NCBI GenBank assembly: GCA_023150055.1
Contig: JAKLLP010000026.1
Location: 1-12,508, forward strand
Reading direction: 5' to 3'
Source: Gammaproteobacteria bacterium
Lineage (GTDB): Bacteria > Pseudomonadota > Gammaproteobacteria > Steroidobacterales > GCA-2729495
DNA: 12,508 nucleotides
A program made the position numbers and the translations under genes. Positions within the stretch are counted from its first letter, which is position 1. Each line of letters starts with the position of its first letter. This document shows positions 1-10,171 of the stretch, one piece after another. The notes under the pieces are model-generated. The model was not told the origin of the DNA. It made no database searches and saw only the letters and a list, made by a program, of their open reading frames with translations.

Positions 1-729
1 AAGGATCCGGCTATCGTGCTGGCCTCGGCGGAGCCTGCGCAGGCCGCCCGGACCGTGTTGCGCGCTGCCGTGCAGGCTACCGGCCAGGCCTGCCAGTCGA
101 TCGAACGCGTGTACGTGGACCGGGCGAGCTACCAGCCGTTTCTCGAGGCGCTCACCCGCGCTGCGACCCGGGTCGAGTTCAACTATCCGGATGCGCATCG
201 CGGCCATATCGGGCCGCTCATCTTCGAACGCCAGGCGGCGATCATCAGCGCGCATCTCGACGATGCGCGCGACAAAGGCGCTGAGGTGCTCACCGGGGGC
301 GTCATCGAGCGGCACGGTGGCGGATGCTGGCTGCGGCCGACCGTCGTGGCCGGGGTCACCCACCAGATGCAGCTCATGACCGAGGAGACCTTCGGTCCGG
401 TGATCCCGGTCATGGCTTTCGATACCGTCGAGCAGGCCATCGATCTTGCCAACGACTCCGCCTATGGACTGTCCGCCGCCGTGTTCGGCGCCGAGGACGA
501 GGCCAGGGCGGTTGCGCGGCATCTCGAAGTCGGGGCGGTCAGCATCAACGACGGCGGGCTCACCACCGAGGCCTTCGATGCGGAAAAGAACTCCTTCAAA
601 CTGTCGGGCATGGGCCCCTCGCGCATGGGGCCGTCGGGCCTCACGCGCTTCCTGCGCAAGCGTGCGATCCTGATCCAGCGCGGCGTTGCCAAGGACCTCG
701 CCGCATTCGAGGAAACCCCGGACGGCTAG
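1..729 (+). CDS. NAD(P)-dependent aldehyde dehydrogenase, C-terminal part (5' end outside window)
   Basis: The reading frame is open from base 1, so the gene begins upstream and the GTG at 16 is not its start. The 242 visible residues start inside the conserved GGKDP motif (KDPAIVL). The catalytic cysteine is residue 31, in TGQACQSIERVYV, where family members attack the aldehyde and form a thiohemiacetal. The EETFGPV motif at residues 128-134 carries the conserved glutamate that binds the nicotinamide ribose. The end (SRMGPSGLTRFLRKRAILIQ) is the usual oligomerisation region. What is seen is the catalytic and oligomerisation half of a roughly 480-residue soluble oxidoreductase converting an aldehyde to a carboxylate. 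The substrate cannot be told from this half. The gene converges on the hyf-like operon, with 31 bases between their stop codons, and nothing links them functionally. Confidence 0.93.
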   Translation, partial: KDPAIVLASAEPAQAARTVLRAAVQATGQACQSIERVYVDRASYQPFLEALTRAATRVEFNYPDAHRGHIGPLIFERQAAIISAHLDDARDKGAEVLTGGVIERHGGGCWLRPTVVAGVTHQMQLMTEETFGPVIPVMAFDTVEQAIDLANDSAYGLSAAVFGAEDEARAVARHLEVGAVSINDGGLTTEAFDAEKNSFKLSGMGPSRMGPSGLTRFLRKRAILIQRGVAKDLAAFEETPDG

Positions 730-760: not shown

Positions 761-1285
761 TCAGCCCGGGCGGGAACCGGCGTCGAGCAGCAGGAGCAGG
801 CCCTGCAGCAGCTCGAGCGGGGGTGGCGGGCAACCGCGAATGGCGAGGTCGACCGGGACGACCTTCGCCACGGCCCCCACGCAGGCGGGGCTGTCCCTGA
901 AGACGCCGCAACCGGCGGCGCAGTCCCCCGCCGCGATCACCCATTTCGGTGCCGGCGTGGCCGCATAGGTTCGCTCCAGCGCCTCGCGCATGTTCCAGGT
1001 CACGGGACCCGTGACCAACAGCACGTCGGCATGGCGCGGCGAGGCGACGAAGCGCACGCCGAAGCGTTCGACGTCGTAGTAGGCATTGGCGAGCGCGTGA
1101 ATCTCCAGCTCGCAGCCGTTGCAGGAGCCGGCATCGATCTGCCGGATGGCGAGGCTGCGACCGAGACGCCGTCCGATGACGCCCTGCAGTTGCGCGCCGA
1201 TCGGCTCCAGCGCCGGCGTAGGCTGCGCGTGCACCGGCTCGGTGACCGCGCGTGCGAAGAAGTTTTTCAACAGCAGGCGACGCAT
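761..1285 (-). CDS. hyfI: HyfI/NuoB-like small [4Fe-4S] subunit of a complex I/hydrogenase-4-related complex
   Basis: This 174-residue protein is the small electron-transfer subunit of the complex, equivalent to NuoB of complex I and HycG/HyfI of group 4 hydrogenases. It should sit on the cytoplasmic side, docked to the HyfG-like subunit. All four expected ligands of the proximal (N2-type) [4Fe-4S] cluster are visible: C55 and C58 in SCNGCE, C122 in GDC and C151 in RGCPPPP. The VTGPVT segment (91-96) is also typical of the family. It is the last gene of the operon and starts 6 nt after the hyfG-like stop codon. The Shine-Dalgarno sequence is weak, so translational coupling is likely. The intact cluster ligands show that the complex still transfers electrons even though its large subunit lacks the hydrogenase active site. 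The name hyfI is by homology and does not imply hydrogenase activity. Confidence 0.88.
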   Translation of the reverse strand: MRRLLLKNFFARAVTEPVHAQPTPALEPIGAQLQGVIGRRLGRSLAIRQIDAGSCNGCELEIHALANAYYDVERFGVRFVASPRHADVLLVTGPVTWNMREALERTYAATPAPKWVIAAGDCAAGCGVFRDSPACVGAVAKVVPVDLAIRGCPPPPLELLQGLLLLLDAGSRPG

Positions 1286-1291
1286 GGCGGC

Positions 1292-2791
1292 TCAGAGATC
1301 GTGTCCGGAATACGAGCAGTTGAAGGATTTGTTGCACAGCGGGAAATCGGCGACGATGTTGCCCTCGACGGCCGCTTCGAGCACCGGCCACTGGAACCAC
1401 GACGGGTCGCGCAGGTGACAGCTCTCGATGCGCAGGTCCGGCGCGACGCGCACGTAGGCGAGGATGTCGCCGCGGAATCCCTCGACGAGTGCGGTCGACT
1501 CGCGGGTCTCGGCCGGGGCCGGCAGGTCGCAGAGCAGTGAACGACCGGCGGGCAGTCCCGCGAGCAGGCGGCGGATCAGCGCCGTGCTCGCGCTGACCTC
1601 GGCCAGGCGCACGCGCACACGGGCATCGACATCGCCCTCCTGCAGCACGGTCAGCGCCGGCATGACGACGTCGTAGGGCGCGTAAGGGAGCTGGCAGCGC
1701 ACATCGAAGGCCCGGCCCGAGGCGCGGCCGATGACGCCGCCGCAGGCAAAGCGTGCGGCGAGTTCGCTGCCGAGCCGGCCCGTGCCGACGGTGCGATCCT
1801 GCAGCGATGCCGTGTTGTCGTAGAGTTCGATCAATTCCGGCATGCGCCGGTCGATGTGGTCGAGCAGCCGCCCGATGCGGCCGGATCCGGCCGGGTCGAG
1901 ATCGGCGATCACGCCACCGGGCACGAGGCAGTCCATCATCAGGCGGTGGCCGAAGCAGCCGTCGACGACGCGGAGCACCTGCTCGCGCAGCATGCCGCAC
2001 TCGTTGTGCATCAGCGCGAAGGAAGCGTCATTGCAGATTGCGCCGATATCGCCCAGGTGATTGGCGATGCGCTCGAGTTCCGCCATGACGGCGCGCAGCC
2101 ACGTGGCACGCGCCGGCACCTGGACGCCGAGGGCGGTTTCCACGGCCCGGCTGTAGGCCCAGGCGAATGCCACCGCGCTGTCGCCGCTGGTGCGCGCCGC
2201 GAGCCGATGACCGGCGCGCACCTCGCAGCCCGCGAGCAGACGTTCGACGCCCTTGTGCGTATAGCCCAATCGTTGCTCGAGGCGCACGATCATCTCGCCG
2301 TGCGCGGAGAAGCGGAAATGCCCCGGCTCGATGATGCCGGCATGCACGGGACCGACCGGAATCTGGTGCAGAGCCGGCCCGTTGGCCGGCAGGAACTCGA
2401 AACCTGCCTGCGCCCGGTCGCGGTCGCGCGCCGGTCGCGTGGGCCAGTGACCATGATCCAGCCAGGGACGCGGGTCGGGCAGGGCGGTCACCTCGATGCC
2501 GTGAAGGTCCTGCAGCGCGCGTTCGAGCCGGATGGCCGGCGCATGGAAGACACCGAGCGAGGGCACGCGTCCGTCCCAAACCGGCAGGGACAGCACGCAC
2601 GGTGCCGCACCGCTGCGCTCGAGTACCGCCGCGTGCACGCACTCGACATCGCCCCACAGGCCGAGGAGGTCGAGGTCGTCGGCGCGCAGCGCTTCGCCGA
2701 GCGCGCGCCAGCCATCGGCAGGGGCCAGGCGACGCGGCCAACCCTGGTGGCGGGTAACGATCGGCCAGTCGCTGAACCGCGAGTGAAACAT
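1292..2791 (-). CDS. hyfG: HyfG/HycE-like fused NuoC-NuoD large subunit lacking nickel ligands
   Basis: This 499-residue protein has two domains. Residues 1-120 are a degenerate NuoC (30 kDa) domain, with PSLGVFHAPAIRLERALQDL around 77-96 and DPRPWLDHG at 106-114. Residues about 140-499 are a NuoD (49 kDa)/hydrogenase large-subunit domain, with YTHKGVERL (177-185) and VPARATWLRAVMAELERIAN (225-244). Aligned from memory to the HycE segment RVCGICGFAHSTAY, residues 200-213 read RTSGDSAVAFAWAY, so both N-terminal nickel-binding cysteines are serines (S202, S205). The C-terminal DPCxxC is replaced by ADFPLCNKSFNCSYSGHDL, whose two cysteines (C486, C492) are spaced CX5C. The protein therefore cannot hold a classical NiFe site and belongs with the Ehr-type subunits. 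The ATG at 2791 has GAGG about 6 nt upstream and lies 6 nt after the hyfF-like stop. The substrate is unknown. Confidence 0.87.
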   Translation of the reverse strand: MFHSRFSDWPIVTRHQGWPRRLAPADGWRALGEALRADDLDLLGLWGDVECVHAAVLERSGAAPCVLSLPVWDGRVPSLGVFHAPAIRLERALQDLHGIEVTALPDPRPWLDHGHWPTRPARDRDRAQAGFEFLPANGPALHQIPVGPVHAGIIEPGHFRFSAHGEMIVRLEQRLGYTHKGVERLLAGCEVRAGHRLAARTSGDSAVAFAWAYSRAVETALGVQVPARATWLRAVMAELERIANHLGDIGAICNDASFALMHNECGMLREQVLRVVDGCFGHRLMMDCLVPGGVIADLDPAGSGRIGRLLDHIDRRMPELIELYDNTASLQDRTVGTGRLGSELAARFACGGVIGRASGRAFDVRCQLPYAPYDVVMPALTVLQEGDVDARVRVRLAEVSASTALIRRLLAGLPAGRSLLCDLPAPAETRESTALVEGFRGDILAYVRVAPDLRIESCHLRDPSWFQWPVLEAAVEGNIVADFPLCNKSFNCSYSGHDL

Positions 2792-2797
2792 CGTGCC

Positions 2798-4246
2798 TCA
2801 GCCTCCCAGCACTGCGGCGACCTGGCGAAACCAGGCGGTGATCGGTTCCGGGATGAAGACGCCGGCGATGGCGACCAGCGCGAGATGCACGAACATCGGC
2901 AACAGGCGCCATGCTGGTAGTTCGTGACGGTGTGTCGTGTCACCGAATGCCATGCCCTGGAGCCGCATCAGCAGGGCGCCGAAGCCGACCATGAGGCCGA
3001 TGGCGAGCGGTACCGTGAGCAGCGGCATGCGCGCAAACGTCGAGGTGACGACCAGGAACTCGCTGGTGAACACGCCGAAGGGGGGCAGGCCGGCGATGGC
3101 GACCACGGCGGCGACCAGCATCCACCCGAGCAACGGCTGGCTGCGGGTCAGGCCACGGATGTCGGCGATCTGTTGTGTGCCCTCGAGCTGGGACACGTAG
3201 CCTACCCCATAGAAGATCGCAGACTTCGTCAGACTGTGCATCGCCATGTGCAGCAGGCCGGCGAAGTTCGCCAGCGGTCCACCAAGGCCGAACGCGAAGG
3301 TGATGATGCCCATATGTTCGATGGACGAATAGGCGAACAGCCGCTTGATATCGCGCCGCCGGTAGAGCATGAATCCGGCGAGCAGGACCGAGGCCAGTCC
3401 AAGAGCCATCATCAGCGGGCCGGGAGCGAGAACGCCGGGGTTGCCCGCGACGATCAGTTTGAAACGCAGCAGCGCGAAGAGGGCCACGTTGAGCAGCAGC
3501 CCGGAGAGCACGGCGGAGATCGGCGTCGGTCCTTCCGCGTGCGCGTCGGGCAGCCAGGCGTGCATTGGCGCGAGTCCGACTTTCGTGCCGTACCCGAGCA
3601 GCAGGAACACGAAGGCGAGATTGAGGAGCGCGGGGTCGAAGACCGCGGCGTTGGCCAGCAGGCGATCCCACGCCATGGCCGGTAGTCCCTCGCCGAGCAC
3701 TGGCTGGGCCGCGAGATAGACCAGTATGGTGCCGAACAGCGCGAGCGCGATGCCGACAGAGCCGAGAATGAAGTACTTCCAGGCGGCCTCCAGCGCTGCA
3801 GCGCTGCGGTAGATGCCAACCATGACTACGGTCGTCAGGGTCGACGCCTCGACGGCGACCCACATCAGTCCGATGTTGTTGGCAAGCAGCGCAAGGTTCA
3901 TCGAAAACATCAGGAACTGATACATCGCGTGGTAGAACCGGATGTAGCTTGCCGTCAGGTGTCGCGTCTCGATTTCGTGGGCGATGTACCCGGCGCTGAA
4001 GAGGCTGGTCGACAGCCCGACCAGGGCATTGATGATCAGGAACACGGTGTTGAGATCATCGACTGCCAGGTAGATCCCGCCCGCCGGGCGCGCCGCATAC
4101 AGCGTGGCCGCGCAGACGAGCGTGGCCGCGCAGACGAGCGAGTTGAGCAGCGCGGACACCCGGTAACCGGGCAGAAGTAGCAGCAGCAGCGCCCCGCCAC
4201 CGGGGATCGCCAGCAGCCCCGCCATGGCCAGCTCCGCCGGCATCAC
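2798..4246 (-). CDS. hyfF: HyfF-like (NuoM/antiporter-type) membrane subunit
   Basis: This 482-residue, largely hydrophobic protein of about 14 helices belongs to the NuoL/M/N-MrpA/D antiporter-like family and should form a cation-translocating channel in the inner membrane. Conserved channel features are E133 in VAVEAS, K222 in GTKVGLAPMHAWLPDAH, K341 in HSLTKSAIFY and E396 in FTSEF. In helix 8, where NuoM and the HyfB-like neighbour have a lysine, it has N253 (SGLLLNVALFALLRF). The start is ambiguous: GTG at 4246 forms a GTGA overlap with the hyfE-like stop, and ATG at 4243 would give a TGATG junction. GGAGAG upstream could serve either. An 18-bp tandem duplication near the 5' end repeats LVCAAT at residues 37-48. 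The next gene, hyfG-like, follows 6 nt later. Confidence 0.9.
   Translation of the reverse strand: MMPAELAMAGLLAIPGGGALLLLLLPGYRVSALLNSLVCAATLVCAATLYAARPAGGIYLAVDDLNTVFLIINALVGLSTSLFSAGYIAHEIETRHLTASYIRFYHAMYQFLMFSMNLALLANNIGLMWVAVEASTLTTVVMVGIYRSAAALEAAWKYFILGSVGIALALFGTILVYLAAQPVLGEGLPAMAWDRLLANAAVFDPALLNLAFVFLLLGYGTKVGLAPMHAWLPDAHAEGPTPISAVLSGLLLNVALFALLRFKLIVAGNPGVLAPGPLMMALGLASVLLAGFMLYRRRDIKRLFAYSSIEHMGIITFAFGLGGPLANFAGLLHMAMHSLTKSAIFYGVGYVSQLEGTQQIADIRGLTRSQPLLGWMLVAAVVAIAGLPPFGVFTSEFLVVTSTFARMPLLTVPLAIGLMVGFGALLMRLQGMAFGDTTHRHELPAWRLLPMFVHLALVAIAGVFIPEPITAWFRQVAAVLGG
4101..4140. repeat. Perfect 18-bp tandem duplication inside hyfF (about 2.2 copies)
   Basis: Period-18 identity runs over 40 bases, from 4101 to 4140, with unit CGTGGCCGCGCAGACGAG on the plus strand. 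It breaks at 4100 versus 4118 and at 4123 versus 4141. The duplication keeps the reading frame and adds six residues (LVCAAT twice, residues 37-48) to the second predicted transmembrane helix of the HyfF-like protein. Perfect identity suggests a recent event. Confidence 0.9.
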
Positions 4247-4905
4247 TGCTGCTCTCCGCGCGACATGTCGAGCGCCTGCAGGTCGACGGTGTCGAACCGC
4301 TCACGAATGCGGAACAGGAAAATGCCGATGACCAGGAAGGCGATCAGGATCGAGAACCCGACGCTGATTTCCACCACCAGTGGCATCCCGCGGGCGCCGG
4401 TGGCGGCGAGGACCAGCCCGTTCTCGAGCGACATGAAACCGACCACCTGGCTGACCGCATTGCGCCGCGTGACCATCATGAGCATGCCGAGCAGGACCAC
4501 GGACAGCGCGAACGCGAGATCCTCGCGGCCGATGCTCGAGGCGACCGCGGTCACGGGCAGCATTATGACGATGGACAGCGCTACCAGCCCGATGCCGAAG
4601 AGCATGGTGAGGCCGATGCCGCCGACCGTCTCAACGGAGCGGTGGATGCCGAGGCGCTGCACGATCCGATGCAGGGCGCCGGGGATGATCACGCCCTTGA
4701 AGACGAAGGCGATGAAGGCGGTCACGTACAGATGGGGCGCATCCTGGATCCAGGCCTGCCAGCCGACGGCGAGCGCGAGCACTACGGCATGCAGGGCAAA
4801 GACATTGAGCAGCGCGAACATCCGGTCCTGGTAGAGCAACATGAAACTTACCAGTACCAGCGAACCGGCGAGCAGATGGGCAATATCGAACCAGATGCCG
4901 CTCAC
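4243..4905 (-). CDS. hyfE: HyfE-like membrane subunit with NuoK-like C-terminal part
   Basis: This 220-residue hydrophobic protein has about six or seven predicted helices. Its C-terminal half resembles NuoK: FMSLENGLVLAATG (residues 157-170) carries membrane glutamate E161 and LVVEISVGFSILIAFLVIG (176-194) carries E179, the two positions used for proton transfer in NuoK. The N-terminal helices are the HyfE-specific addition. It should link the HyfC-like quinone/ion module to the antiporter-like subunits. The start is a GTG at 4905, overlapping the hyfC-like stop as GTGA, with GAGG about 8 nt upstream. No other in-frame start lies close. It overlaps the hyfF-like start in the same way at its 3' end, so translation is probably coupled throughout. 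Confidence 0.87.
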   Translation of the reverse strand: MSGIWFDIAHLLAGSLVLVSFMLLYQDRMFALLNVFALHAVVLALAVGWQAWIQDAPHLYVTAFIAFVFKGVIIPGALHRIVQRLGIHRSVETVGGIGLTMLFGIGLVALSIVIMLPVTAVASSIGREDLAFALSVVLLGMLMMVTRRNAVSQVVGFMSLENGLVLAATGARGMPLVVEISVGFSILIAFLVIGIFLFRIRERFDTVDLQALDMSRGEQQ

Positions 4906-5861
4906 TGGCTCATCCTCGAGACGAACAGCAGCAGCGTGCCGAGCAGGCCGAGCATGAGTGCGGCACCAAGAAACTCCGGCACGCGAAACACCCGCATCTT
5001 GGCGATCGATGTCTCGAATACAGCCAGCAACGCCGCGAGCGCCGTGAGCTTCGCAAGAAAAGCGGCGATACCGACGGCAACGGCTCCCGCACCGGCTCCG
5101 GCATCGGCGAGTCCGAAGGGCAGGAACACGCAGGAGAGTATGGCCAGGTAGGCGATGAGCTTCAGGGCCGCTGCCAGCTCGATCATCAGCAGGTGCCGGC
5201 CGGCGTACTCGAGCACCATCGCCTCGTGCACCATGGTGAGTTCGAGGTGGGTGGCGGGGTTGTCGACCGGAATGCGGCCGTTCTCGGCGATCGCCACCAT
5301 GACGAGCGCAGTCAGGCCGAGCGCGAGCGACACGCGCAAGCCGACCTCGGGGCTGGCCATGAAGGCCGCGATGCCGGTGAGTTGGCTGGTACCCGACAAC
5401 AACGCCACGATGAACACCACCATGAGCATGGCGGGTTCGGCCAGCGCGGCGATCATGGCTTCACGGCTCGAGCCGATGCCGCCGAAGCTGGTGCCGGCAT
5501 CGAGGCCGGCAAGCGCCACGGTGGCGCGCCCCGTGCCGATGAGGGCGATGATGGCGATGAAATCTCCCGACCAGCTGAACAGCAAGCCGGTGGCGAAGGT
5601 CGGCACCAGGGCGGCGGCCACCCAGGTCGCGCCGAAGGCGACGTAAGGGTAAACGCGAAACAGCGGCGAAGCGGTCTCGGCTACCAGGGCCTCCTTGCGC
5701 AGGAGTCGCGCCAGATCGCGATAGGGTTGCAGCACCGGCGCTCCCGTGCGGCGCAGCAGCCGCGCCCTGGTTTTGCGCGTGATGCCGATGATGAGCGGGG
5801 CCACGGCGACGACCAGCAGCATCTGCAGAAACTGCAGTGCCAGTGACGGGATCAGTGCCAT
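4902..5861 (-). CDS. hyfC: HyfC/HycD-like (NuoH family) membrane subunit
   Basis: This 319-residue membrane protein of the NuoH (complex I subunit 1) family anchors the soluble arm and begins the ion-translocating path. The family signature is AENGRIPVDNPATHLELT at residues 192-209, followed by MVHEAMVLEYAGRHLLMIE (210-228), which has the conserved acidic residues. QPYRDLARLLRKE (45-57) is the usual cytoplasmic loop that contacts the small and large subunits. I chose the ATG at 5861 rather than an in-frame ATG at 5963: the upstream 34 residues are non-hydrophobic and atypical, while MALIPSLALQFLQML is a typical NuoH/HyfC beginning with GGTGGCGGC just upstream. This start overlaps the hyfB-like stop by 10 nt. 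The gene ends in a GTGA overlap with the hyfE-like gene. Confidence 0.9.
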   Translation of the reverse strand: MALIPSLALQFLQMLLVVAVAPLIIGITRKTRARLLRRTGAPVLQPYRDLARLLRKEALVAETASPLFRVYPYVAFGATWVAAALVPTFATGLLFSWSGDFIAIIALIGTGRATVALAGLDAGTSFGGIGSSREAMIAALAEPAMLMVVFIVALLSGTSQLTGIAAFMASPEVGLRVSLALGLTALVMVAIAENGRIPVDNPATHLELTMVHEAMVLEYAGRHLLMIELAAALKLIAYLAILSCVFLPFGLADAGAGAGAVAVGIAAFLAKLTALAALLAVFETSIAKMRVFRVPEFLGAALMLGLLGTLLLFVSRMSQ

Positions 5862-7885
5862 GCCGCCACCACTGCCAGCAGAATGATCAGCGCCGCGAAC
5901 ACCAGCAGCAGATAACGCCGTATCGTGAGAAATTGCAGAGCATTTGCCTGTGTGGCGAGCCACATGATGCTGCCGGCGAGTGGCCGGTAGCCCAGCTCCC
6001 AGGACAGGTCACGCCATTCCACATGGGCGATCGCGGGACGGGTCTCACCGGGTGGGGCCATCTCGACGCGTTCCCGGGCCAGGAACAGGGTGGAGCCGAA
6101 CACGCGCTTCAGCGGTTGGGCAAAGCTCGTGGCCGTGTATTGCGTGGCCGGGTTCGTATCCGGGGAACCGCAATCCCAGGCAGGCGTGCGCCGCAGCGCT
6201 CCGGAGGCAACGAGACGCAGGACGACGGCCGCGATTGTCGCGGAGGTCAGCAAAAACGCGAGGATAATCGCGCCGTTGTACGAACTGCCCGAACTGGACA
6301 GCGGCACGAGTGAGCGCCAGGGCCCGGCGTCGGGATCCGGCAGGCGGGTGCCGACGATGTCGCGCACCACCAACTGCAGTGGCTCGATGGCGAGAGCCGG
6401 GATGGCGCCGAGCAGAACGCAGGCGGCCGCGGCCACCAGCAGCGCGGTGGAGGACGCCGGATCTGTTTCCTGCGCGTTCCGGGCCTCCGGGCTGCGCGCG
6501 CGCCCGAGGAAGGTAATGCCGAACAGGCGCACGAACAGCGCGGCCGCGAGAGCTGCCGCCAGCGCAAAAGCTGCGCCGCCTGCGGGGATGAGCAGCTTGA
6601 GCAACCAGCCCGGCAGCGTTGGGCTGGCGAGCACCGCCTGGAACAGCAGCCACTCCGAGACGAAGCCATTCAGCGGGGGCAGGGCAGCGATCGCCGCGGC
6701 TGCGATCAGCATCCCCGCTGCGGTGCGCGGCATGCACCGGATCAATCCACCGTAGCGCTCGAGCGAGCGCTCTCCCGTGGCGCTGATCAAGGCGCCGGCT
6801 CCCATGAACAGCGCGCTCTTCATGAATGCGTGATTCACGCCATGCAGCAGCGCCGCGGTCAGCGCCAGGGCGGCGGCGGCCTCGAAATGCTTCGCCTGGA
6901 ACGCAAGTGCCAATCCGAGGGCGCCGAAAATCATGCCGATGTTCTCGATGGTGCTGAACGCCAGCACCCGTTTGATGTCGACCTCGAGCAGCGCAGCGAG
7001 TACGCCGTAGACCGCCGTCATGGCGCCGAGCACGATCAGCAGGCCGCCGAGCCAGTCACCGTGGTCGCCCGGGGTGACCAGATCGAACGCAAAGCGCACG
7101 AACGCGTAGACCGCCACCTTCGTCATGACGGCGCTCATCAGGGCCGAAACGTGCGAAGGTGCCGCGGGGTGGGCCAGTGGCAGCCAGGCATGCAGGGGAA
7201 ACAGCCCAGCCTTGGAGCCCGTGCCGGCGAGCGCCAGCAGCAGCACGGTCGCGCCCGTAAGGCCCGGCAGGGAGGCGCCGCGTATCTGCGCGAAGCTGTA
7301 GCCGCCGGCAACCCCGGCCAGCAGGCCGAAAAACATCAGTAGCGACAGGGTGCCGCCAAACGCCATGAGCAGGTAGACCAGGCCGGCGTGGCGATTGCCC
7401 TCGTCGCGGTCCTGGCTGACGACCAGCGCCCAGGAGGCGAGCGACATGAACTCCCACCCGACGAGAAAGGAAAAAGCGTCGTTGGCAAGCAGCACGAGGT
7501 TCATGCCGGCGAGAAACGCCGGGTAGAAGGGCAGTACCCGCGCGGGCTCCGGCTCGTGGCGCCCATAGCCGAGCGCGTAAGCGCTGGTGATCGCCGTCAC
7601 CGCATTGATGATGACGGCGAATGCCGCAGAAAGCCGGTCCCAGCCGAGCAATGTGTGTTGCATCGGCAGGCCGACGGCCAGGTCGAGCGCGGCTGCGGGT
7701 TGCGGCGCGAGCAGGCTGTAGAGTGCGAGAGCCGTTTGCGCGGCGGTAAGCGCCATGCAGGTGCCGTAGACCAGCGCCGTAGCGCTGGTGCGCCGCGCGA
7801 TCCACGGCGCGAGCGCCGCGAGCAGCAGCAGCGCCCCGATGACGAGCGCGGCCCAGACCTGCAGCGGCGGTGCGCTGGGGCTCAT
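5852..7885 (-). CDS. hyfB: HyfB/HycC-like (NuoL/M antiporter-type) membrane subunit
   Basis: This 677-residue protein has about 16 predicted helices and is the larger antiporter-like subunit. Channel residues are all present: E145 in VGWEFMSLASWAL, K225 in GTGSKAGLFPLHAWLPLAHP, K256 in SAVMTKVAVYAF, K305 in VDIKRVLAFSTIENIG, K356 in HAFMKSALF and E411 in FVSEWLL. The hydrophilic segment TPAWDCGSPDTNPATQYTAT (567-586), followed by SFAQPLKRVF, is diagnostic for HyfB/HycC rather than NuoL. A final helix lies near 656-675. The role is cation translocation across the inner membrane, driven by the redox reaction of the soluble arm. It is the first structural gene. Its ATG overlaps the XRE regulator stop codon as ATGA, which ties its translation to that of the regulator. 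Confidence 0.93.
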   Translation of the reverse strand: MSPSAPPLQVWAALVIGALLLLAALAPWIARRTSATALVYGTCMALTAAQTALALYSLLAPQPAAALDLAVGLPMQHTLLGWDRLSAAFAVIINAVTAITSAYALGYGRHEPEPARVLPFYPAFLAGMNLVLLANDAFSFLVGWEFMSLASWALVVSQDRDEGNRHAGLVYLLMAFGGTLSLLMFFGLLAGVAGGYSFAQIRGASLPGLTGATVLLLALAGTGSKAGLFPLHAWLPLAHPAAPSHVSALMSAVMTKVAVYAFVRFAFDLVTPGDHGDWLGGLLIVLGAMTAVYGVLAALLEVDIKRVLAFSTIENIGMIFGALGLALAFQAKHFEAAAALALTAALLHGVNHAFMKSALFMGAGALISATGERSLERYGGLIRCMPRTAAGMLIAAAAIAALPPLNGFVSEWLLFQAVLASPTLPGWLLKLLIPAGGAAFALAAALAAALFVRLFGITFLGRARSPEARNAQETDPASSTALLVAAAACVLLGAIPALAIEPLQLVVRDIVGTRLPDPDAGPWRSLVPLSSSGSSYNGAIILAFLLTSATIAAVVLRLVASGALRRTPAWDCGSPDTNPATQYTATSFAQPLKRVFGSTLFLARERVEMAPPGETRPAIAHVEWRDLSWELGYRPLAGSIMWLATQANALQFLTIRRYLLLVFAALIILLAVVAAWH

Positions 7886-8163
7886 GGCTTGCCGGCCTGG
7901 CCCGCTCCGCCGTCGTCGGATTGGCGCAGGCGTACGCCGCGTCCGCCGCTGCCGCTGGCTGCGTTATCGCCGATCAACTCGATGCCCGCCGCCTCGAGTG
8001 CCCCGATCAGCTTCATCAGCGAATCGACGTTGCCGCGGATCACTCCCTGGCTTGATTCCATGCGCTGGATGGTCGGCAGCGACAGCTGGGCCGCCTCCGC
8101 CAGCGTGCGCTGATCCATGCCGAGGAGGGCGCGGGCGGCACGGAGCTGAGCAGCAGTAATCAT
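7882..8163 (-). CDS. Small XRE-family helix-turn-helix regulator, first gene of the hyf-like operon
   Basis: This 93-residue cytoplasmic protein has a Cro/CI-type helix-turn-helix over roughly residues 4-60: AAQLRAARALLGMDQRTLAE, then AAQLSLPTIQRME (24-36) with the recognition helix about 27-36. The tail (67-93) is Gly/Ser/Asp-rich and probably disordered, and there is no ligand-binding domain. The ATG at 8163 is chosen because MITAAQLRAARALLG is the usual beginning of this group. No Shine-Dalgarno sequence precedes it, since the bases upstream form an AT-rich inverted repeat, so a leaderless mRNA is possible. The stop codon overlaps the hyfB-like start (ATGA), so the regulator is co-transcribed with the complex. 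By position and family it is most simply an autorepressor of the operon. That role is inferred. Confidence 0.88.
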   Translation of the reverse strand: MITAAQLRAARALLGMDQRTLAEAAQLSLPTIQRMESSQGVIRGNVDSLMKLIGALEAAGIELIGDNAASGSGGRGVRLRQSDDGGAGQAGKP

Positions 8164-8409: not shown

Positions 8410-9096
8410 ATGAAACGCGTCACCGAGCCCGAGTTGATGGATGACGCCGAGCAGGCGCGCGCCTATCACGAGGCCGATTTCAGCGTTGCACATGGCGAGC
8501 GGGTCGCGATCTTCCGCCAGATGTTTCCCGGTTTAGAGCCCGACGGCGCCGTGCTCGACCTAGGCTGCGGATCAGGCGACGTGCTGCTGCGTTTCGCGCG
8601 CGCCTTTCCCCGCGCACGCTTCACCGGGGTGGACGGTTCGCAGCCGATGCTGGACCTGGCCGCCGGTGAACTGCGCCGGCATGCGGATCTGCAGCGCCGT
8701 GTCCAGCTGTGCCGCGCCATCCTGCCGTCGAGTGAACTGCCGCAGGCGGACTGGCAGCTGGTGATGAGCCACAGCTTGCTCCATCAGCTGCACCAGCCGC
8801 AGGTGCTGTGGCGGACGATTCGCGAGGCGGCGCCGCCTGGCTGTAAGGTGTTCGTTGCGGACCTGCGCCGGCCCGCGACGGCGGCGGACGCTGCTCGCAT
8901 CGTGGCCGAACGCTCGGCCGGCGAGCCCGACGTCCTGCAGCAGGATTTTTTCAACTCGTTGTGCGCAGCGTTCGAACCCGCCGAGGTCTGCGCGCAGCTC
9001 GACGCAGCCGGGCTTGCTCATCTCTGTGTCGAGCCGGTGGGCGACATTCACCTGGTCGTGTACGGAACGATGGCGGGCGCGGGCAGTGGGGTTTGA
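8410..9096 (+). CDS. Class I SAM-dependent methyltransferase
   Basis: This 228-residue soluble protein has a Rossmann-type methyltransferase fold. Motif I is VLDLGCGSGD (residues 48-57), which binds S-adenosylmethionine. Motif II is TGVDGSQPML (72-81), with the acidic residue expected to hold the ribose hydroxyls (D75). Motif IV-like LVMSHSLLHQL is at 117-127 and the post-motif VFVADLRRP at 147-155. The N-terminus, MKRVTEPELMDDAEQARAYH, is familiar from a group of uncharacterised methyltransferases and supports the ATG at 8410, although no Shine-Dalgarno sequence is obvious. The HSLLHQL segment suggests a small-molecule rather than a protein or rRNA target, but the substrate cannot be named. 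It is divergent from the hyf-like operon and is followed 172 nt later by the membrane protein gene, on the same strand but probably with its own promoter. Confidence 0.85.
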   Translation: MKRVTEPELMDDAEQARAYHEADFSVAHGERVAIFRQMFPGLEPDGAVLDLGCGSGDVLLRFARAFPRARFTGVDGSQPMLDLAAGELRRHADLQRRVQLCRAILPSSELPQADWQLVMSHSLLHQLHQPQVLWRTIREAAPPGCKVFVADLRRPATAADAARIVAERSAGEPDVLQQDFFNSLCAAFEPAEVCAQLDAAGLAHLCVEPVGDIHLVVYGTMAGAGSGV

Positions 9097-9198
9097 TGGT
9101 CTTTGCTTTCCATGGCCGGCCGCAGCAGCAAATGCCGCTCGCGCCAGGCTGCACCGTGGATCTGAACCGGTGGTCGCGGGTGCGGCTATTCGCCGCAC

Positions 9199-9245
9199 GG
9201 GCCTTCTAATATCGGATCAAAGGCCTAACATTGTTTTTATAGCGA
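9199..9245 (+). promoter_or_regulatory. AT-rich stretch, probable promoter region of the membrane protein gene
   Basis: Between the methyltransferase stop (9096) and the ATG at 9269, bases about 9204-9245 turn AT-rich, with TAATAT at 9207-9212 and TATAGC at 9238-9243 as possible -10 elements. Neither has a good -35 at the right distance. The gap otherwise holds nothing recognisable. Confidence 0.25.
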
Positions 9246-9268
9246 GTTGTCAGACACCGGGTGATCCC

Positions 9269-10171
9269 ATGGCCGACCTGCACGAATTCAAGAAGCTCTA
9301 CCAGGCCCCGTTGCCGGCCATCATCGCGCTGCTGGTCGTGTTCGGCTGGCAGGGCGTCGGCCACTGGGTGATGTACATGATGGAGCACAGCTGGTTCAAG
9401 GATCAGGTGTTCCTCGCCTCCTTTGTCATCGGCCTCGTCGGTGCGATCATGGTCTGGATCGGCCGCAACAAGGGCGAGAGCCCGGCGACGCTGCTTGGTT
9501 TTGCCGGCGGCAGCCTGATCTGGCTTGCGTGGATCGAATTCAGCTTCGTTTATGTCGCTGACGATCTCGGGGTGCAGCCGGTCCGGTGGGGAGCGAAGGA
9601 CACTCTGCCCGAGTACCGCGTCATGCTGTCCTCGATCGGCGTGCTGTTCGCCTCGCTGCTGTTTTTCTTCTACAACCGCGACACGCGCTGCAACGCCTTC
9701 ATGTGGCTGCATCGCAATCTGCATCTCAAGCCCGGCGATCGCAGCTCGGTGCAGCAGCGCAATATCGCCTCCATCACCGCGATGGAGACGATTTACGTCA
9801 CCTGGTTCTGTTACCTGTACCTGTTGATCCTCTACAACCCCGCCTTTTTCGGCACCGACCACTGGTTCACCTTCGCCTCCTGCGCTTTCTTTGCCGTGTG
9901 GGCGATTTACCTCGGCCAGCGGCTGTGGTGGTTCCAGCGGGTTGCACCGGCCGTCCGCTACGCCATCCCCACGGGCATCATCGCCTACAACGTGGTGGAG
10001 ATCCTCGAGAAGTGGGGCAAGATCGACGAGATCTGGGTGCAGCCACAGAAATACGCGGTCGAAATCGGCGTCGCGGTGGCGGCGTTGATTCTGGTGATCG
10101 TGCTCGCGATCGTCAGCCCGGCGCGGCGCATCGTCGAGCGCCCGGAGGCCGGCAGCCACGCACGTTCCTGA
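9269..10171 (+). CDS. Unrecognised multi-pass membrane protein (300 residues)
   Basis: I do not recognise this family. The ATG at 9269 is chosen within a longer open frame because it has a GGGTGA-like ribosome binding site at 9260-9265, follows an AT-rich probable promoter, and opens with MADLHEFKK leading into a helix. Further upstream, the frame overlaps the methyltransferase gene. About eight hydrophobic segments are predicted near residues 14-37, 46-65, 74-97, 118-135, 173-191, 197-219, 231-248 and 262-283. Polar loops contain conserved-looking patches: RNKGESPAT (66-74), RWGAKDTLPEYR (106-117), FFYNRDTRCNAFMWLHRN (133-150) and SSVQQRNIASITAMETI (159-175). Charged or polar residues lie in or near helices (E90 in WIEFSFVY, E173 and T178 in METIYVTWF, E244 in NVVEILEKW), which hints at a cofactor, lipid or ion role. 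There is no signal peptide or known motif. It is followed by a strong hairpin, so it is probably monocistronic. Confidence 0.75.
   Translation: MADLHEFKKLYQAPLPAIIALLVVFGWQGVGHWVMYMMEHSWFKDQVFLASFVIGLVGAIMVWIGRNKGESPATLLGFAGGSLIWLAWIEFSFVYVADDLGVQPVRWGAKDTLPEYRVMLSSIGVLFASLLFFFYNRDTRCNAFMWLHRNLHLKPGDRSSVQQRNIASITAMETIYVTWFCYLYLLILYNPAFFGTDHWFTFASCAFFAVWAIYLGQRLWWFQRVAPAVRYAIPTGIIAYNVVEILEKWGKIDEIWVQPQKYAVEIGVAVAALILVIVLAIVSPARRIVERPEAGSHARS

Follow-up and report, generated by a model that had tools for sequence, protein, structure and literature searches.

The operon and its nickel-ligand positions

The stretch of DNA analyzed here (the window; 12,508 nucleotides, contig JAKLLP010000026.1, C188 in our numbering) comes from a 2.65-Mb gammaproteobacterial assembly of 517 contigs that is 73% complete, and carries a tight minus-strand gene cluster, HTH-hyfB-hyfC-hyfE-hyfF-hyfG-hyfI, headed by a gene for a helix–turn–helix (HTH) protein. 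The genes overlap their neighbors or are spaced by 6 bases, and every frame is open. Judging by its genes and their order, the cluster is a hyq operon and, by published descriptions, encodes an Ehr (energy-converting hydrogenase-related) complex. Its large subunit, HyfG (HyqG), has no cysteine at any of the four positions where [NiFe] hydrogenases bind nickel. The features are as follows.

1292..2791, minus strand: hyfG/hyqG, large subunit, 499 amino acids, ATG start (PF00346, 117 bits; best solved-structure match HycE)
2177..2188, minus strand: codons of S202-G203-D204-S205, replacing the CGIC nickel motif (HycE alignments)
1295..1321, minus strand: codons of the C-terminal tail NCSYSGHDL (491–499), replacing DPCYSCTDR (HycE alignment)
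761..1285, minus strand: hyfI/hyqI, NuoB-like small subunit (PF01058)
2798..4246, minus strand: hyfF/hyqF, antiporter-like membrane subunit (NCBIfam hydrogenase 4 subunit F, 781 bits, cut-off 533)
4243..4905, minus strand: hyfE/hyqE, membrane subunit (NCBIfam hydrogenase 4 membrane subunit, 81 bits, under the cut-off of 136)
4902..5861, minus strand: hyfC/hyqC, NuoH-like membrane subunit (PF00146, 125 bits); the start at 5861, the first in-frame ATG near the end of hyfB, is our choice, and the longer open reading frame (ORF) reaches 5963
5852..7885, minus strand: hyfB/hyqB, antiporter-like membrane subunit (NCBIfam hydrogenase 4 subunit B, 740 bits, cut-off 667)
7882..8163, minus strand: hyqR-like gene for a small HTH regulator, first in the operon (PF01381, 24.7 bits)

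HyfG consists of a NuoC-like N-terminal part fused to a NuoD/hydrogenase-like part. In the pairwise (173 bits) and MAFFT alignments with HycE of E. coli K-12, the nickel-binding C241, C244, C531, and C534 of HycE correspond to S202, S205, S493, and G496 of HyfG, respectively, and D529 and P530 correspond to N491 and C492. HyfG residues 200–213 read RTSGDSAVAFAWAY, S202-G203-D204-S205 standing for CGIC of HycE and N491-C492-S493-Y494-S495-G496 (NCSYSG) for DPCYSC. An earlier note on this DNA, made from the sequence alone, had claimed the replacement of both N-terminal nickel cysteines by serine and the absence of the C-terminal DPCxxC, and both claims hold; none of the alignments restores an intact CxxC pair. 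Because the ligands are missing at all four aligned positions, a classical NiFe center in HyfG is excluded by sequence, as the note had concluded.

The replacement is more than chance, since it is near-invariant across 121 rows (120 homologues and the window protein): position 202 is Ser in 119 rows and Cys in two, and G203, D204, and S205 are invariant. Among 82 related ORFs, the motif reads SGDS in 78, SGDA in three, and CGDS in one. These ORFs come from 80 genome contigs, the best 80 of 577 found via two patterns from residues 147–162, and from two plasmids, one plasmid locus being counted twice (L024, L056). The CGDS ORF (L053, match 2036-3538) has a single cysteine at the first nickel-ligand position. 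In a wider set of 31 rows, which takes in 11 outer relatives at 41–46% identity, S202 and D204 are found in all rows and G203 in 30; at position 205, 25 rows have S, four M, and two A. As far as these alignments reach, the conserved signature is S-G-D rather than SxxS, the pattern whose conservation the note had proposed to check.

In 82 of 82 ORFs, HyfG stops at the alignment column of HycE R537, where E. coli NuoCD stops as well. The solved HycE chain runs up to R537, after which HycI cleaves HycE; HyfG therefore has no cleavable tail.

Nickel maturation genes, which the note had named as evidence that would speak against its claim, did not appear: the window has no match to E. coli HypA, HypB, HycI, or HycH, and its own genome, at 73% completeness, none to HypD. 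HypD was likewise not found in 20 of 42 carrier genomes of unstated completeness and from 36 of the 57 carriers in an evenly drawn sample of 299 genomes, ten of these 36 being inner-clade genomes listed as 100% complete; a sub-threshold HypD match in one genome (G174) was counted as absent. Rhizobium johnstonii 3841 (L056) has SGDS, and HypD was not found there. Dependence of the carriers on HypD was considered and rejected, HypD being present in 21 of 57 carriers and 59 of 242 other genomes (p 0.07), so that carriers do not clearly differ from the rest. By these gene counts, the complex appears independent of HypD.

Pocket, membrane arm, and distribution

In the structure of E. coli formate hydrogenlyase, the active-site surroundings comprise the loop residue Glu193, the canopy residues Arg478, Ser283, and Asp529, the last described as strictly conserved throughout the superfamily, and the path His284-Glu437-Arg395 (PMC9474812). 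In HycE numbering, Glu193, Arg478, His284, Glu437, and Arg395 are retained in all 82 ORFs; in HyfG, the retained proton path behind the pocket comprises E155, H245, R356, E398, and R440. The canopy Asp529 is replaced by Asn491 in 82 of 82 ORFs and in 31 of 31 rows of the wider set, and D204 and K488 are new and invariant in the 82 ORFs. The pocket ranks among the most conserved parts of the protein. Of two structure models, the first was poor in the pocket; the second was good (predicted local distance difference test, pLDDT, 89.5), but residues 149–152 and 154–157 fell below 50.

The quinone-binding residues of complex I are absent from HyfG. The Tyr position is G203, as the note had aligned it by eye, and E. 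coli NuoCD carries Tyr in that column; the His position is I154, and a second His position is Met or Leu. The complex I Asp position (D255) is retained in 82 of 82 ORFs. C253, C486, and C492 are Cys in 9, 1, and 9 of the 11 outer relatives, respectively, which argues against a Cys-ligated site common to the whole family; C253 is Cys in HycE as well.

HyfI residues C55, C58, C122, and C152, all four present in 78 of 78 ORFs, are predicted to bind one [4Fe-4S] cluster. Compared with E. coli hyf, the window has no HyfA, HyfH, or HyfJ match and merely two antiporter-type ORFs, so the HyfI cluster is the only predicted iron–sulfur cluster of the complex. The note had called the rest of the complex intact, which is correct for the hyq/Ehr gene set and incorrect relative to E. 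coli hyf. The membrane arm is of the Ehr kind, with NuoH-like and antiporter-like subunits next to the NuoB-like small subunit, and ion-path residues are retained in 59 of 59 HyfF and 67 of 67 HyfB ORFs that passed a length filter (from 81 and 73, respectively). In a tree of 39 rows, a branch with support 99/99 separates the large subunits of Ehr/Hyq from HycE/HyfG and from NuoD; together with the fit to published Ehr descriptions, this upholds the Ehr assignment made in the note. An origin of Ehr from a hydrogenase or from complex I was also considered and cannot be read from this tree, which separates the three groups, is unrooted, and has long branches.

Ehr/Hyq matches (E <= 1e-130, a threshold set by us) were found in 57 of the 299 genomes drawn evenly from the phylum, with the motif read in 30 of the 57; one genome with a partial match at a contig end (G225) was left out. 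Close matches are present in two of ten genomes of the window's genus and in two of the 40 nearest genomes. All six genes are present in 68 of 82 loci, and 13 of the other 14 reach a contig end; the remaining one (L087) has no HyfI match despite 4 kb remaining. Public records name HyfG homologues as Ni,Fe-hydrogenase III large subunit, HypE, nickel-dependent hydrogenase, or NADH-quinone oxidoreductase subunit C, and these names mislead.

A 0.9-Mb genome (G260; 35% GC, 50 contigs, listed as 100% complete) retains the operon, split over contigs C21 and C5 (L139, L158), with each part cut at a contig end; hyfB and hyfC(part)-E-F-G-I are kept. This genome has no match to NuoF (1 of 57), COX1 (1 of 9), cytochrome bd (4 of 9), HypD, or Fdh-alpha (10 of 299), and its exactly two Proton_antipo_M genes are HyfF and HyfB. 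The complex is thus retained in a genome where complex I and the COX1 and cytochrome bd oxidases were not found. On C5, an ORF of 87 amino acids matches the NuoB family only at positions 63–127 and resembles a remnant of a decayed complex I, and C21 has sugar-acid catabolism genes near the operon (UxaC, 2-keto-3-deoxy-6-phosphogluconate aldolase, and the altronate dehydratase family).

A dedicated redox partner was sought by clustering the neighbors of the inner loci and was rejected, only HTH genes being found at a fixed place. HTH genes were matched in 47 of the 82 related loci, and in 14 of 21 outer loci an HTH-cupin regulator gene heads the operon. The most frequent other neighbor cluster, an ABC-transporter ATPase, occurs in 12 inner loci at scattered positions. 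In one outer locus (L142:13050-19339, genome G114), a gene similar to the Si-specific transhydrogenase SthA lies 6 bases after the operon and is followed by rnfABCD, the genes of a low-potential electron complex; SthA or Rnf genes adjoin the operon in this locus only, one of 21 outer loci. In L060 (3-995, minus strand), from a metagenome-assembled genome labelled Terriglobia, a CGIC-type NiFe hydrogenase large-subunit ORF adjoins the hyq operon on the opposite strand. In the window, an aldehyde dehydrogenase gene (16-729, plus strand), cut at the window start, adjoins hyfI; such a gene also adjoins the operon in L005, from the sole other carrier genome of this genus. The window ORF at 8855-10171 (plus strand) has no Pfam or NCBIfam match and a hydrophobic, apparently membrane-spanning end.

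Promoter elements were compared in 45 upstream regions, those without an identified HTH gene being excluded. NifA and sigma-54 elements occur singly in 3 and 3 regions, against 5.2% and 1.5% of random windows (both elements, 0.2%), and by these rates the NifA-box element is slightly above the control. NifA/sigma-54 control as a general feature was rejected, no region carrying both elements.

A tentative mechanism and its alternatives

The note had called the reaction of the complex unknown. This overlooks papers on the hyq operon of Azorhizobium caulinodans, whose genetics tie it to H2 (PMC3357923). According to the hyq papers, expression depends on NifA, diazotrophic growth is slower in the deletion mutant, and both H2 recycling and microaerobic H2 evolution depend on hyq (PMC2650096, PMC2930871, PMC3357923). 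The H2 phenotype was described for Azorhizobium deletion mutants and, by statement, for one further species (PMC2930871), and the H2 genetics come from one laboratory.

Our preferred reading, held with somewhat less than even confidence, is that the Hyq/Ehr complex is a nickel-free, complex-I-like ion pump that passes electrons between a low-potential carrier and quinone. Electrons would move between a soluble carrier, possibly ferredoxin or flavodoxin docked at the HyfH site, and the membrane quinone, the likely other electron partner, via the one predicted [4Fe-4S] cluster. D204 may handle protons in place of the lost canopy Asp, the carboxylate having in this case shifted from the C-terminal to the N-terminal loop. 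Running in reverse, the complex could generate low-potential electrons at the expense of the ion gradient, and a reversible pump of this kind might help to feed nitrogenase in Azorhizobium. It would account for the NifA control and for two traits of hyq mutants, slow growth on N2 and a drop in acetylene reduction, with no need for H2 chemistry at HyqG; in nodules, acetylene reduction was 25 in both hyq mutants versus 31 and 33, and loss of hup caused no such drop (PMC2930871, Table 1). The published H2 phenotypes are either direct, through new chemistry, or indirect, and we favor the latter.

Several observations weigh against such a pump. No electron donor or acceptor emerged from the analyses here, and no partner gene recurs beside the operon in the neighbor clustering of inner and outer loci. 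The Gly and Ile at the quinone Tyr and His positions make quinone doubtful, and change of the canopy Asp, here Asn, impairs quinone reduction in complex I (PMC9474812). Evidence of a quinone pool in the reduced genome consists of one menA homologue. The paired NifA and sigma-54 elements are found in none of the 45 upstream regions, and the window has neither element. In Azorhizobium, a nifK hupSL strain shows hyq-dependent H2 evolution of 56,600 pmol per 10^9 cells per min (PMC3357923, Table 2), and H2 recycling persists after hup/hyp deletion (PMC2930871); the pump model explains these two results less well.

Alternatively, a separate soluble dehydrogenase, e.g., formate dehydrogenase, may dock on HyfG/HyfI and drive the complex, as proposed for Riflemargulisbacteria and Saganbacteria (PMC6349859); in Geobacter, Ehr proteins are more abundant on formate (PMC7894505). 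We consider this unlikely: in the even sample, Fdh-alpha exceeds the cut-off in 17 of 57 carriers and 102 of 242 other genomes (p 0.10), it is lacking from the reduced genome, no dehydrogenase gene recurs beside the operon, and the SthA-like gene is present in only one of 21 outer loci.

It is rather improbable that HyqG-type proteins are nickel-free hydrogenases, making or oxidizing H2 in a polar pocket beside the [4Fe-4S] cluster, with coupling to proton pumping and no Hyp maturation. To our knowledge, there is no hydrogenase without metal ligands of such a kind, and this counts against the proposal. The pocket could be formed by S202-G203-D204, K488, N491, R440, and E155, perhaps with C253, C486, C492, or an unknown metal. 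Retention of the loop Glu, the canopy Arg, and the hydrogenase proton path in all 82 ORFs would suit such a site; the loss of the canopy Asp to Asn, equally universal, and the counts of the Cys trio in the outer relatives (C486 in one of 11, C253 and C492 in nine) would not. Genetic results also speak for it. At 20 uM O2, H2 loss rises about 15-fold on hyq deletion and 45-fold on deletion of hyq and hup, and in a hupSL strain hyq deletion cuts microaerobic H2 evolution from 61,000 to 14,000, with nifK not needed (PMC3357923, Table 2); recycling survives the loss of the whole hup/hyp operon and is stated, with data not presented, for a species with hyq and without hup/hyp (PMC2930871). On the other hand, according to its authors a cell-free assay was not at hand (PMC3357923), and the published hyq deletion takes out hyqR as well.

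A redox-dead relic, whether it now serves as a channel or antiporter for ions or is in the course of being lost, would agree with the loss of the nickel ligands and of the quinone Tyr and His, and with the sporadic occurrence of the operon (two of ten genomes of the genus). It is made very unlikely by the pocket being among the most conserved parts, by the HyfI cluster cysteines in 78 of 78 ORFs, and by retention of the operon in a 0.9-Mb genome. Other NuoL-type carbon-uptake systems exist, and a gene for a hexapeptide-repeat protein, a fold common to gamma carbonic anhydrases, directly precedes hyfB in G351 (L143:15303-15863, minus strand). Ion-gradient-driven uptake of CO2 or bicarbonate, in line with which one Acidithiobacillus caldus hyf cluster adjoins a carbonic anhydrase gene (PMC3826726), is nevertheless the least probable explanation, since uptake would not need the [4Fe-4S] cluster whose cysteines are retained in 78 of 78 ORFs, and carbonic anhydrase formed no recurrent neighbor cluster, an aimed search being confined to L143.

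Ehr/Hyq complexes are widespread (57 of 299 genomes) and their catalysis is unproven, and there is a contradiction between three papers that report hyq-dependent H2 metabolism and a sequence that, by alignment, excludes a NiFe center. The residue map (D204, K488, N491, and the Cys trio), the carriers lacking HypD, and the reduced genome make this contradiction testable; the question of a nickel-free hydrogenase would become open to test because the same cluster is reported to affect H2 in a nitrogen-fixing bacterium. If the H2 phenotype is indirect, as the preferred pump reading has it, the complex would be a new entry point for low-potential electrons; if direct, it would represent a new kind of H2 chemistry, and a nickel-free hydrogenase would be the fourth kind of hydrogenase and the first without a metal–CO cofactor.

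Comparison with known systems

The complex belongs to a known but unsolved family, and the lack of both CxxC pairs in HyqG was reported by its authors in 2012 (PMC3357923). New here are the S-G-D signature, traced across a broader set of relatives; the replacement of the canopy Asp, accompanied by a new Asp and a new Lys; the apparent independence from HypD; and the retention in a reduced genome.

Compared with E. coli hydrogenases 3 and 4 (HycE, HyfG), the window protein lacks the nickel ligands, the canopy Asp, and the C-terminal extension; it has neither the RxCGxC/DPCxxC ligands nor the protease-removed extension of group 4 [NiFe] hydrogenases. Likeness to complex I (NuoD/Nqo4) is seen in the fold, Asp255 (at the Nqo4 Asp139 position by alignment), the chain end, and the antiporter residues. 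Unlike complex I, the window protein has canopy Arg instead of Lys, Asn instead of the canopy Asp, and Gly/Ile at the quinone Tyr/His positions, HyfI has a hydrogenase-type CxxC, and there is no gene of the NuoE/F/G type (NADH module) among the scanned window ORFs.

The Ehr complexes of Nitrospira, Geobacter, Sulfobacillus, and others, compared here by their descriptions alone, also have a group-4-like large subunit without NiFe motifs and HyfB/HyfE/NuoH/NuoL-like membrane genes, and are described as being of unknown function (PMC4378227, PMC10284858, PMC10432482, PMC6349859). In the part of the literature searched, no paper equating Hyq with Ehr was found, nor was the term Ehr seen in the three hyq papers.

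The closest correspondence is with Hyq of Azorhizobium caulinodans. Its expression depends on NifA; upstream of the window operon, neither a NifA nor a sigma-54 element was found. The hyq operon has been described as confined to N2-fixing microaerophilic alphaproteobacteria (PMC2930871); the window host lies outside this class, and some contigs among the hyq-type records of this analysis bear beta- or gammaproteobacterial labels. The gene order hyqRBCEFGI is that of the window (PMC2650096, PMC2930871, PMC3357923). The conserved HyqG cysteines 258, 491, and 497 correspond to C253, C486, and C492 of the window protein at a constant offset of 5 (PMC3357923), and HyqI cysteines 55, 58, and 152 are numbered as in the window HyfI; the third of the four HyqI cysteines is printed as 112 and corresponds to C122 in the window. 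R. johnstonii 3841, a species named in the hyq papers, has the same gene order, and its operon (L024/L056) carries the same SGDS motif.
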